A DNA stretch of 64,000 bases from Celeribacter persicus (lineage in GTDB: Bacteria; Pseudomonadota; Alphaproteobacteria; Rhodobacterales; Rhodobacteraceae), in assembly GCF_003050785.1 (NCBI RefSeq), contig NZ_QAOH01000003.1:62001-126000 (forward strand), given 5' to 3'. The first letter of the stretch is position 1. Each line of letters starts with the position of its first letter. The position numbers and the translations under genes were made by a program. The notes beneath the pieces are model-generated. The model was not told the origin of the DNA and did not search any database. It saw only the letters and a list, made by a program, of their open reading frames with translations. Positions 2,919 through 50,236 of this stretch are shown piece by piece.

Positions 2919-3418
2919 GTCATGGCCCCCGTCTTTTTCGCCTTCTTGAGGAACATCTGACGTTTCACCGGCTTGAGATTGTCGAAATACATCCTGCCAT
3001 TCAGATGGTCGATCTGGTGCTGCACCGAGGTGGCCCAGAGACCGACGAAATCGCGCTCCTCAACCTCCCCCGCCTCGTTGAAAAAGCGCACGGTGACGGC
3101 GCGCGGGCGGGAGATCACGGCGGACATACCGGGCAGGTTCGGGGAGGCCTCTTCGTGTTCACGCATCTGTACGGAGGCGTGAAGCACCTCGGGATTGGCC
3201 AGTTTGATCGCCTTGCCCCGCTCGTCGGAACAATCGACCACGGCCAGGTGTTGCATCACCCCGATTTGCGGCCCGGCAAGGCCATAGCCCGGCATGGCAT
3301 CCATGGTCTCGACCATATCGGCCCAGATCGTGCGAATCTCGTCCGTGATCTCGGCCACGGGCGGCACTGCGGTTTTCAGACGTTTGTCGGGATAAGACAC
3401 AAAGGGGCGGATGGTCAT
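2915..3418 (-). CDS. Peptide deformylase-like protein, catalytic residues lost
   Basis: A 167-residue protein with the deformylase fold: [12 protein letters not shown] at the N terminus, [10 protein letters not shown] at 44-53 (motif 1) and [15 protein letters not shown] from 134 (motif 3). The canonical EGCLS motif reads EASPN (90-94), so the metal-ligand Cys is Ser92. The HExxH Glu is Gln135. Both metal-binding and general-base positions are therefore changed, and normal deformylase activity is unlikely. The frame is intact and coupled on both sides (ATGA with fmt and with the second paralogue), which argues for a retained role rather than decay. Confidence 0.85.
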
Positions 3419-6153: not shown

Positions 6154-6273
6154 GTTAAAGCGTTTTGCGAACAATCTGAATCACAGATTTTCGGAAAACG
6201 TTGTGCAGGGCTCATATGTTGAGGGCCTTTTGCAACTGTTCTGTGCCTCAGATCAATTGCAAAAGGCTTTAAC
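6154..6273. repeat. Dyad repeat element, copy A, centred on CATATG
   Basis: A 120-bp imperfect palindrome between the 5' end of the hypothetical gene and the cobM stop. The outer ends are GTTAAAGC (6154-6161) and its complement GCTTTAAC (6266-6273). The exact centre is CATATG (6213-6218). Each half folds on itself. The left hairpin has arms 6161-6178 and 6184-6200 (16 of 17 pairs plus a bulge, 5-nt loop). The right hairpin has arms 6225-6235 and 6257-6267 (11 perfect pairs), with CTGTGCCTCAG in its loop. A related copy lies at 50090-50207. No U-run follows on either strand, so it is not a simple terminator. It could be a REP/MITE-like element or a structured RNA. Confidence 0.75.
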
Positions 6274-23170: not shown

Positions 23171-23200
23171 TTGACCATACCATCGCGCACGCGCCAAATA
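23171..23200 (+). promoter_or_regulatory. Candidate promoter for the riboswitch-cbiM-cobW transcript
   Basis: TTGACC (23171-23176) and CAAATA (23195-23200) are spaced by 18 bases and would start transcription near 23207, just ahead of the riboswitch. A perfect hairpin ACGCGCC-AAATA-GGCGCGT (23189-23207) spans the -10 region. The -10 match is weak. Confidence 0.4.
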
Positions 23201-23207
23201 GGCGCGT

Positions 23208-23436
23208 CATGGTTCCCCGACAAAGACGCATGAGCGTTCGGGGAGAAATGGGAATGTGGTGCGTGTGATCCACCCCGGAGCACAAGGCCACAGCCGCCCC
23301 CGCGACTGTAAGCGGAGAGTGCCCGTCGGCATACCACTGAGGGAAACCTTGGGAAGGTGACGAGAGCGCTTTGACCCGCGAGCCAGGAGACCAGCCCTGA
23401 CCACATAACTCAACCCGCCGACGGGGATGTCGGCTA
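23208..23436 (+). promoter_or_regulatory. Adenosylcobalamin riboswitch upstream of cbiM
   Basis: All main landmarks of the AdoCbl aptamer occur in order: a 5' stem CCCCGA/TCGGGG (23216-23243), AAATGGGAATGTGGTGCG, GCCCCCGCGACTGTAAGCGG, ACCACTGAGGGAAACC, and the B12 box AGCCAGGAGACCAGCC (23381-23396). TGGT (23210-23213) can close with ACCA (23400-23403) as P1. Next comes a hairpin GCCGAC/GTCGGC (23417-23434) with a GGGGAT loop that is complementary to the CCCCC loop of the aptamer, consistent with an L5-L13-type kissing contact. The SD GGAGG (23438-23442) follows at once, so control of translation initiation is likely. Confidence 0.93.
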
Positions 23437-47646: not shown

Positions 47647-47925
47647 GTTTTTCCCCTTCCGTTTGAGCGGGCGGCGTCCAAAGGACAGCCACGGGGTCAG
47701 CAAAACGGTGTTCAGACTTGCTTCACAAGGAATCCGCGCAGGAGGGATGAGTTATTTCTAGGCATCGCTGCTCAAAAATTGTACATTTTGTGCGTCATGG
47801 TCAAAAAATAGGCGTAAAATAAAGAGGTGGAGGCGACTCGTTTCCCCTTAACTTTCCTCTCAACATCCGCAGGCCAAGTCTTTACACTTACGGCAATAAG
47901 AATGGACCGAGATCGAGCAAAAGAC

Positions 47926-50091
47926 ATGACCAGACCAAACCGGGGGAAGCCCAGGCTGGTGGCCGAGAAACGCTATCCCGCGACCCAAAAGACGCAGAAA
48001 AAACAGACAAAGCCCAAAACGAAGGCCCCGAGGAAGGCGCGCACCACGCGCACGACACGCGTTCGCAAACGCTCGTCCAACCTGTTTGTCCGGTTCATCG
48101 GCGGGCTCTGGCGTCTGATCTGGATCACCCTCACACGGGCCGGAATCGCGCTTGCGGTGGTCGTCGGAATTGCCGTCTTCTACCTCTACTCCAGCCTGCC
48201 GCCTTACGACTCCTTGCTCGACGGGCGCGCACGCGGTTCGGTCACGCTTCTGGACCGCGACGGGTCGGTCTTTGCCTGGCGCGGCGAACAGTTCGGCGGC
48301 CAGATCACCGCCGACACCGTTTCGCCCTATCTGAAAGAGGCGATTGTCGCGACCGAGGACAAACGCTTCTACCGCCATTTCGGGGTCTCGCCCCGCGGCA
48401 TTGCCTCGGCCATTCGCATCAACCTGTCTGAGGGGCGTGGCCCCCTGTCCGGGCACGGCGGCTCGACCCTGACCCAGCAGACCGCGAAACTTCTGTGTCT
48501 TGGCGTGCCCTATGATCCGAAGAAGTGGAAGACCCAGGCCGAATACGAGGCCGATTGCCGGGAAAGCACGATTGCGCGCAAACTCAAGGAAATGGTTTTC
48601 GCCATGGCGATGGAAGCGCGCTATTCCAAAGATGAAATTCTCTCGATCTACATGAACCGCGCCTATCTCGGGGCCGGTGCGAACGGGTTTGAGGCCGCAG
48701 CTCAGCGCTATTTCGACAAATCCGCAGCCGAGGTGAACATTTCCGAGGCCGCCATGTTGGCCGGTCTTTTGACCGCGCCAACCCGTTATGCACCGACCAA
48801 TAACCTGCAACGCTCGCAGGAACGTGCGGGGATCGTGCTTTTGTTAATGAACCAGCAGGGGTACATCACCGACGAGGAACGCGCCTATGCCAAGGCACAT
48901 CCCGCAGAACTTTCGGAAACCGCGGAGAAACGCGCAGGCGGATACTTCGCCGACTGGGTCATGGGCGCCGGGCCGGATTTCCTGACCCGTGACACCACCG
49001 AAGACGTGGTGATCGAAACCACGTTTGACCAACGCATCCAATCTGCGGCCGAAGAGGCGCTGACGTGGATTTTCGAGAACAAGGTGAAGGAAGGTTCGGA
49101 CGCGCAGGCCGCCATCGTGGTGATGTCCGCCGACGGGGCCGTGCGCGCCATGGTGGGCGGACGCAAGCTCAAGGTCTCCGGCGCCTTCAACCGCGCAACA
49201 CAGGCGAAACGCCAGCCCGGGTCGAGTTTCAAACCTTTCGTCTATGCCACAGCGCTCGACATGGGCTGGTCCTATGACGATGTGGTGGTGGACGAGCCGA
49301 TCACCCTTAACATTCCCGGTTCGGGCCCATGGTCGCCGCAGAACTACGACCGTAAATTCCATGGTGCCGTGACCCTGACCGACGCGCTCAGGCACAGTTA
49401 CAACATCCCGGCGGTCGAGTTGGCGATGGATGCAGGACTTGAGAATGTGCGCACCGTGGCTTCGAGTTTCGGGATCGAGAGCGATCTGGCGCAAGGCCCC
49501 GCTCTGGCGCTCGGCGTGTCGGAAACCACGCTTCTGGAGATGACCGGAGCCTATGCCGGCATCCTCAACGGCGGCTCTTCGGTAACGCCTTACGGGTTGA
49601 AATCCCTGCGTCTCAAAGGCGACAGCACGCCGCTGATGGGACAGGAAGGCGGGCTTGGCGAGCGTGTCATCACCCCGAACAGCGCCCAGCAGCTTATTTA
49701 CATGATGTATAACGCGGTCCAGAGCGGCACCGGCACGCGAGCGCAAATCCCCGGCGTCGAGGTGGCGGGCAAGACCGGCACGACGCAGGCCGCGCGCGAT
49801 GCCTGGTTCATGGGGTTCACCGCCGATTACGTCGCAGGCGTCTGGATGGGCTATGATGACAACTCGCCATTGACGGGCGTGACAGGCGGCGGACTTCCGG
49901 CTGAGATCTGGCAACGGACCATGGCGCAGGTGCAGGAAGGTCTCGAACCCAAACCTCTGCCGATGATCCGTCCGGCTAGCCCCCCCACGGTACAACGGGT
50001 GCAACCCTCCGGCAACGGCCAGCGCGGCGGCAACAAGGCCGACAACGTGCTGCTCGATCTGTTGGGCGCGATTTTCGGAAATGGGAACTAA
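47926..50091 (+). CDS. Class A penicillin-binding protein (PBP1A-type, transglycosylase/transpeptidase)
   Basis: A 721-residue bifunctional enzyme. A very basic N terminus of ~60 residues (TQKTQKKQTKPKTKAPRK) precedes one membrane helix (AGIALAVVVGIAVFYLYS). The glycosyltransferase domain has ATEDKRFYRHFGV, GGSTLTQQTAKL and KLKEMVFAMAME. The transpeptidase domain has PGSSFKPF (active Ser), SYN (SxN motif) and KTGTT. The Pro/Gly-rich tail is probably disordered. ATG 47926 is preferred over 47902 because it starts the recurrent MTRPNRGKPRL segment. Repeat element B starts at its stop codon. Confidence 0.95.
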   Translation: MTRPNRGKPRLVAEKRYPATQKTQKKQTKPKTKAPRKARTTRTTRVRKRSSNLFVRFIGGLWRLIWITLTRAGIALAVVVGIAVFYLYSSLPPYDSLLDGRARGSVTLLDRDGSVFAWRGEQFGGQITADTVSPYLKEAIVATEDKRFYRHFGVSPRGIASAIRINLSEGRGPLSGHGGSTLTQQTAKLLCLGVPYDPKKWKTQAEYEADCRESTIARKLKEMVFAMAMEARYSKDEILSIYMNRAYLGAGANGFEAAAQRYFDKSAAEVNISEAAMLAGLLTAPTRYAPTNNLQRSQERAGIVLLLMNQQGYITDEERAYAKAHPAELSETAEKRAGGYFADWVMGAGPDFLTRDTTEDVVIETTFDQRIQSAAEEALTWIFENKVKEGSDAQAAIVVMSADGAVRAMVGGRKLKVSGAFNRATQAKRQPGSSFKPFVYATALDMGWSYDDVVVDEPITLNIPGSGPWSPQNYDRKFHGAVTLTDALRHSYNIPAVELAMDAGLENVRTVASSFGIESDLAQGPALALGVSETTLLEMTGAYAGILNGGSSVTPYGLKSLRLKGDSTPLMGQEGGLGERVITPNSAQQLIYMMYNAVQSGTGTRAQIPGVEVAGKTGTTQAARDAWFMGFTADYVAGVWMGYDDNSPLTGVTGGGLPAEIWQRTMAQVQEGLEPKPLPMIRPASPPTVQRVQPSGNGQRGGNKADNVLLDLLGAIFGNGN

Positions 50092-50207
50092 AGTGCCCCG
50101 CCTTTAACCTGAGGCATCAGATAAAGGCGGGGTGCGTGCAACGTTCATATGTTGCGCGGCGTTCGGCCAAAAGCTGTGTCTCAGGTTAAAGGCGTGACGC
50201 TTTCAAC
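50090..50207. repeat. Dyad repeat element, copy B, centred on CATATG
   Basis: A 118-bp palindromic element abutting the PBP stop codon, with CATATG at its exact centre (50146-50151). The left half forms a hairpin with perfect 11-bp arms CCCCGCCTTTA (50096-50106) and TAAAGGCGGGG (50122-50132). The right half forms GCGTTCGGCC/GGCGTGACGC (50159-50168, 50191-50200; 8 of 10 pairs) with CTGTGTCTCAG in its loop. Alternatively 50099-50116 pairs with 50177-50194 over 18 bp (17 Watson-Crick, one G.U). Block order and spacing match copy A at 6154-6273. A terminator follows directly. Confidence 0.75.
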
Positions 50208-50208
50208 A

Positions 50209-50236
50209 AAAAACGCGCCTCTCAGGGCGCGTTTTT
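50209..50236. terminator. Bidirectional terminator between the PBP gene and mlaC
   Basis: AAAAACGCGCC (50209-50219) pairs with GGCGCGTTTTT (50226-50236) around a six-base loop. It gives a U-run on both strands, as expected between convergent genes. Confidence 0.95.

Follow-up and report, generated by a model that had tools for sequence, protein, structure and literature searches.

A dispersed double-hairpin element of Celeribacter persicus is probably a MITE family mobilised by IS630-type transposases

Two palindromic elements in a 64,000-nucleotide stretch of Celeribacter persicus DNA (the window) belong, with a probability that we put at about 93% and judging from sequence comparison, to a family of MITEs (miniature inverted-repeat transposable elements) that IS630-family (Tc1/mariner-type) transposases mobilise in trans. 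We assign them to MITEs because copies are dispersed, because related genomes keep the empty site with a single TA, because some copies are recent and identical, and because their ends are common with IS630-type insertion sequences (IS) of this genome and its relatives. The family is a new one of a known kind, an IS630-type MITE, although its double-hairpin, doubled-end build is unusual.

Results

Two elements with a common layout

The first-pass annotation of the window had described two elements of common layout about 44 kb apart. Both were found where it had reported them, and their bounds were refined to 6156-6271 (copy A) and 50089-50204 (copy B), with the following features.

6156..6271, + strand: copy A, 116 bp from TA to TA; family member; single-TA empty site in the congeners L396, L401 and L402
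6156..6184, + strand: left terminal inverted repeat of copy A, TAAAGCG...CTGAATCAC; up to 21/29 identical to an IS630-family end
6160..6201, + strand: left hairpin of copy A, a covarying helix; the outer arm is the terminal repeat and the inner arm an inverted copy of the outer
6202..6224, + strand: centre of copy A, with CATATG at 6213-6218; the centre has the lowest conservation in the three subfamilies compared
6225..6267, + strand: right hairpin of copy A, a covarying helix
6243..6271, - strand: right terminal inverted repeat of copy A, TAAAGCCTTTTGC...CTGAGGCAC; 25/29 identical to the IS630-family end of genome G244
50089..50204, + strand: copy B, 116 bp; family member with its 3' terminal A mutated to C
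50089..50117, + strand: left terminal inverted repeat of copy B; 24/29 identical to the IS630-family end of genome G049
50093..50135, + strand: left hairpin of copy B, the same covarying helix as the left hairpin of copy A
50159..50200, + strand: right half of copy B; 3' arm converted to the complement of the left hairpin 5' arm, by eye against sister copies
50176..50204, - strand: right terminal inverted repeat of copy B; 24/29 identical to IS630 ends of G049 and of C. persicus itself
50089..50091, + strand: TAA of copy B, which is the stop codon of a penicillin-binding protein gene (47827-50091; ORF end; Pfam Transgly and Transpeptidase)

As had been reported, CATATGTTG is followed in both copies by exactly 19 bases and then CTGTG(C/T)CTCAG. 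CATATG, said to mark the exact centre of symmetry, is 2 bp away from the midpoint between the refined bounds; it occurs in just 7 of 37 aligned copies of this genome and is therefore not a defining feature of the family. In two relatives (L397, L403) without copy B, the penicillin-binding protein gene has its stop at this very position, as TGA or TAA. Just 3' of copy B, a GC hairpin with a T-run (50214-50231) looks by eye like a terminator common to the flanking convergent genes, and it is also found in relatives that lack copy B. The sole Rfam match in the window at gathering thresholds is a cobalamin riboswitch (23193-23413, 122.7 bits).

Copy number and subfamilies in C. persicus

BLAST and profile searches of the C. 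persicus genome joined copies A and B into one dispersed family. The covariance-model search that the first-pass annotation had suggested, run with a model built from the alignment of 37 near-full-length copies of this genome, revealed many more copies, mostly between genes and with covarying stems. It gave 118 matches at E ≤1 with both strands counted, and merged places numbered 62 at E ≤1, 58 at 0.01 and 54 at 0.001, these E-values being rough, so that the weakest matches may be chance; at either of the two stricter thresholds, 48 places were at least 105 bp long. Elements measure ~112-117 bp, run from TAAAGCG to CGCTTTA and contain no gene, and deletion forms and solo hairpins of ~51-66 bp were also present. 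A simple motif rule divided the 37 copies into subfamilies B (15), A' (12) and A'' (4), with A and others making up the remaining 6; A, A' and B have a similar centre. At one locus (L041 1550-1565), a B copy adjoins a short AAGCCTTTCGCAAAAGGCTT palindrome, which may be what is left of an older copy.

GAATC, of the GANTC type, stands at 6178-6182 and at the same place in sister copies, where it was found in 20/37 left loops and 0/37 right loops. It was also seen in three of the four IS 5' ends read, and at either end in loci of other genomes. GANTC is the site of the CcrM methylase, and one may speculate that GAATC methylation could mark one end of the element after replication.

Identical copies and empty sites

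Sixteen flank pairs from two genomes with bursts of the element (G312, a congener, and G308) were joined and searched in 20 genomes of the genus, and 12 filled loci were compared with relatives. At 10 of these 12, relatives had a single TA against the two of the filled site, and at the other two (L119, L133) they had a TGA stop at the site. One flank was diverged in relatives at L131, L135 and L137; L203, considered as an empty site, was actually filled. For the copies of C. persicus, eight flank pairs were searched and five compared. A single TA was present in relatives at the sites of window copy A (empty in three species), L017 and L018, while at copy B and L023 the junction in relatives was diverged, with no clean TA duplication readable for copy B. 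The check for target-site duplications that had been proposed thus showed mostly one TA in empty versus two in filled sites; IS630 members, as described for ISY100, insert at TA with duplication (PMC2170065).

The same 115 letters recurred between differing flanks in 14 of the 23 G312 loci examined (a set taken with L154) and in 4 of 9 G308 loci. Five of the 14 identical G312 copies (L115, L118, L124, L125 and L127) lie inside one larger repeated IS, and therefore represent, with the others, at most ten independent G312 insertions. This larger element, which carries one MITE, belongs by its Pfam HTH_Tnp_1 and rve matches to the IS3/IS481 type, with the NCBIfam models for IS3 and IS481 scoring below cut-off, and the identical MITE copy is spread by the element in which it rides. 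Lone TAAAGCGTTTTTC ends in G312 (70 matches) were considered as marks of a larger IS, but none of 12 inspected stretches fits: ten hold copies of near-full length, L219 is a truncated copy and L215 a chance match.

Ends common with IS630-family elements

Among five genomes searched, Pfam DDE_3 was found in one, that of C. persicus (109 bits). This genome holds an IS with ends of the MITE type at ~C4:102529-103628 (L061 1530-2629), the DDE part of which scored 130 bits with NCBIfam IS630 (cut-off 100); its frame is interrupted between the helix-turn-helix and DDE parts, which counts against the IS630 reading. Of 32 genomes searched with a 201-residue transposase query, 8 gave relatives. The other 24, the burst genomes G312 and G308 included, gave no related transposase at E 1e-10, another point against; in these two the enzyme must therefore have been lost, or be present in strains beyond those sampled. 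Genome G300 carries seven copies of an IS630-type IS that are 99.4-100% identical, three of which (L236, L243, L245), read end to end, measure 1057-1058 bp; despite so many IS copies it had just two MITE matches with both strands counted, one of them listed, which also counts against.

The MITE ends were up to 27/29 identical to IS630-family ends and, beyond TAAAGCG, the best agreement was 21/22 positions against a maximum of 16 in 500 shuffles. The IS end sequence varies by lineage much as the MITE stems do; the G049 end TAAAGCATTCCGCCTTTAACCTGAGACAT is close to subfamily B, and that of G244, TAAAGCCTTTTGCTTTTAATCTGAGGCAT, to the right end of copy A. The sequence of the burst subfamily A'' was in none of the eight IS ends read, a further point against. 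The loops that had been described as conserved are so, yet they are the inner parts of transposon ends, since outer arms and loops match IS630 ends. An A' copy (L030 1504-1615; C1:408602-408714) was found inside a relative of the IS630 transposase gene, an insertion of the element into the very type of gene that would drive it.

The first-pass annotation had left the choice between a REP, BIME or MITE type of palindromic family. Many palindromic copies between genes would be in keeping with REP/BIME elements, which a RAYT (Y1 transposase) moves, but REP is a unit of ~20-40 nt with a REP head motif, whereas the unit here is ~115 bp long, starts with TAAAGCG, has 29-bp inverted ends of IS630 type, duplicates a TA within a YTAR target, and leaves solo hairpins no smaller than ~51 bp. 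We consider REP/BIME very improbable; the MITE designation was right, in view of the dispersed copies, TA duplications and IS630-type ends.

Target site and placement

The target was YTAR in 47 of 54 insertions and ATAG or ATAA in the other 7, the set being drawn from 65 insertions after 11 with damaged or unclear ends were dropped; YTAR made up ~9.6% of TA in 17 background stretches. The outward base after the TA was A in 49 cases, G in 52, T in 7 and C in 0 (n = 108). One report, by its title, is said to give IS630 a preference for TA in CTAG.

By crude gene calls with a simple codon score, 21 of the 37 C. persicus copies lie between co-directional genes, 15 between convergent genes, 1 inside a gene and 0 between divergent genes; the same calls for 28 G312/G308 copies gave 15 convergent, 11 co-directional and 2 divergent. 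A called gene ends on the TAA of the element in 11/37 C. persicus and 15/28 G312/G308 copies, although some of these genes may be cut short rather than naturally stopped, L118 inside the IS being one. The element starts with TA-AAG and ends with CTT-TA, and insertion into a TAA or TAG stop therefore leaves a TAA stop. Stop-codon placement (26/64) was above that expected from the YTAR background (37/204, stop codons versus between genes; P 2e-5), in a test whose G312/G308 loci are partly not independent and whose background held some elements; for the C. persicus copies alone, P was 0.05.

Two covarying hairpins

Folded singly, copies A and B had z-scores of -5.83 and -8.04 against dinucleotide shuffles (0/200 shuffles as good). 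The minimum-energy fold of each copy alone is a single long pairing from one end of the element to the other; when copies are compared, by contrast, the covariation falls on two separate hairpins. The two-hairpin model left 83.2% of cells paired versus 70.6% when shuffled (0/500 reach), with a covariation of 0.374 versus 0.174 (0/500 reach; at most 0.199 when slid) and 200 double-change cells versus 84. Two weaker measures separated less, pairs with changes on both sides (20/37) being reached by 9/500 shuffles and further pair types (49 versus 48.6) by 252/500. The long end-to-end dyad was rejected as the conserved fold (73.4% paired versus 72.3% shuffled; 53/500 reach), its covariation of 0.133 versus 0.097 (0/500) being much less than that of the two hairpins. 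In 64 distinct copies from outside Celeribacter, pairing reached 84.7% in the left helix and 86.2% in the right, where the highest values from 200 shuffles that ignore relatedness were 73.6% and 72.1%; double-change cells numbered 143 and 129, with shuffle maxima of 55 and 57. These copies, distinct among 69 non-Celeribacter places of 84 in all, came from the best 150 of 170 matches, were picked by intact ends, and stand in an alignment fitted to the model. The compensating stems noted at first are thus real.

Strong folding of both window copies, covariation of the two hairpins and the position of copies at gene 3' ends (15 convergent, 21 co-directional and 0 divergent in C. persicus) would suit a structured RNA or mRNA-processing element, in which hairpins act in transcripts (as terminator, RNase III site or 3'-end protection) and are kept for that, a role also suggested for NEMIS of Neisseria. 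Stem departures of G·T type also exceeded those of A·C type in C. persicus (96 versus 51), but outside Celeribacter the two were about equal (107 versus 113); with wobble bias inconsistent in this way, selection on RNA is not clearly indicated. Moreover, the element had no Rfam match at gathering thresholds, YTAR targeting explains much of the placement, and an RNA function leaves the empty sites and the IS-like ends unexplained. We therefore regard it as unlikely.

For inner arms, outer arms and centre, the values were 0.077, 0.081 and 0.151 in subfamily B and 0.041, 0.041 and 0.145 in A', so that inner and outer arms show equal conservation and both are better conserved than the centre (Fisher tests, cells treated as independent). 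In A'' (four copies, poorly in register), inner arms varied at 8/120 and outer arms at 0/131. The proposed selection on structure was thus borne out in part: pairing is kept and the B and A' inner arms match the outer ones in conservation, but outer arms and loops are transposon ends that vary with the IS630 lineage, and no consistent wobble bias is seen.

Quite possibly, the inner arms have no function, each subfamily having arisen by one fold-back duplication of its own IS end, with template switching continuing to perfect the palindromes. By eye, arm conversion is seen in three copies: in copy B and L050 the right 3' arm reads much like the left 5' arm complemented, and in L033 the left 5' arm reads much like its own inner arm complemented; the absence of wobble bias outside Celeribacter and the varying A'' inner arms point the same way. 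Against this, the similar centre of A, A' and B argues that stems changed after common descent, and the inner arms of B and A' are conserved as noted above.

Distribution across genomes

The family is patchy, being present in 18 of 295 genomes of the same family and in 16 of 20 genomes of the genus, C. persicus included in each, with 1 to 121 matches per genome of the genus (both strands counted). A class-wide screen of 385 genomes at E ≤1e-4 matched one genome, that of C. persicus; the class and family screens were run with stricter filters, and few genomes of the same family were in the class sample. An exact-pattern scan of named genomes returned at least 114 stretches. Among the 80 listed were Celeribacter, Roseovarius, Aliiroseovarius, Shimia, Lentibacter, Loktanella, Roseicyclus, Pelagivirga and Maritimibacter, the rest being Rhodobacteraceae, Paracoccaceae or Rhodobacterales without genus, plus one contig filed as Verrucomicrobia. 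That contig (L289, a MAG) has two copies, at 1476-1591 and 2967-3082; it may be misbinned or reflect a transfer, because its longest matches to other fetched loci are element-sized. In genome G244, three copies lie inside ~7 kb of a single contig (L148, C82:12291-19607). In plasmid records, neither copy A nor the burst type A'' had a match, and copy B had one (74.3%, on a Roseovarius plasmid).

Discussion

For an IS630-mobilised MITE, the sequences suggest that a transposase acting at the two ~29-bp ends would excise a 111-bp body and join it at TA within YTAR. Inward of each end lies an inverted copy of that end, which gives two hairpins, and in subfamilies whose ends differ the inner copy stays matched to them. 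This match is most likely due either to a role of the inner arms in transposition, as extra transposase sites or through hairpin geometry, or to template switching that keeps correcting the arms. Tentatively, the element may be unable to move without the inner copy of each doubled IS630 end, which would act as a second transposase site or help the ends to meet across less than one DNA persistence length.

The closest described case is RUP of Streptococcus pneumoniae, which is related to IS630-Spn1 and is described as ~107 bp long, with a TA target, IS630-like ends, high copy number and insertions into IS elements (PMC2229807, PMC3049150); set beside it by description, the Celeribacter family is alike in all of these. 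The terminal repeats of RUP are reported to hybridise to each other (PMC3049150), whereas in the Celeribacter family each end covaries with its own inner copy to form two hairpins, and the host differs. Correia/NEMIS elements of Neisseria (~107 and 155 bp) are likewise described with TA ends and stem-loops, and RNase III processing of NEMIS transcripts has been proposed (PMC2229807).

Paracoccus yeei is an alphaproteobacterium of the Rhodobacter group. Its MITEPye1 resembles the Celeribacter family as an alphaproteobacterial MITE with a stem-loop fold, but is described with IS1182-like rather than IS630-like ends and 1-3 chromosomal copies (PMC11578231). CIR of Caulobacter and Brucella are also alphaproteobacterial intergenic repeats with a GANTC motif, recalling the GAATC of 20/37 left loops here; they are tabulated without terminal inverted repeats (PMC2229807), whereas the Celeribacter family has 29-bp inverted ends and an IS partner. 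A literature search on IS630-type MITEs and intergenic repeats in Rhodobacteraceae, roseobacters and Roseovarius did not find the family, which ISfinder may name.

When base pairs covary strongly over dozens of copies, this is usually taken to indicate a structured RNA; in the present case the carrier is a DNA mini-transposon with doubled ends. If the element is a four-end mini-transposon, ends and inner copies would co-evolve with the transposase and produce covariation that mimics structured RNA. The YTAR target offers a simple account of copies between genes and on stop codons, and the bursts in genomes without a matching transposase provide a natural series in which to study the loss of a driver.
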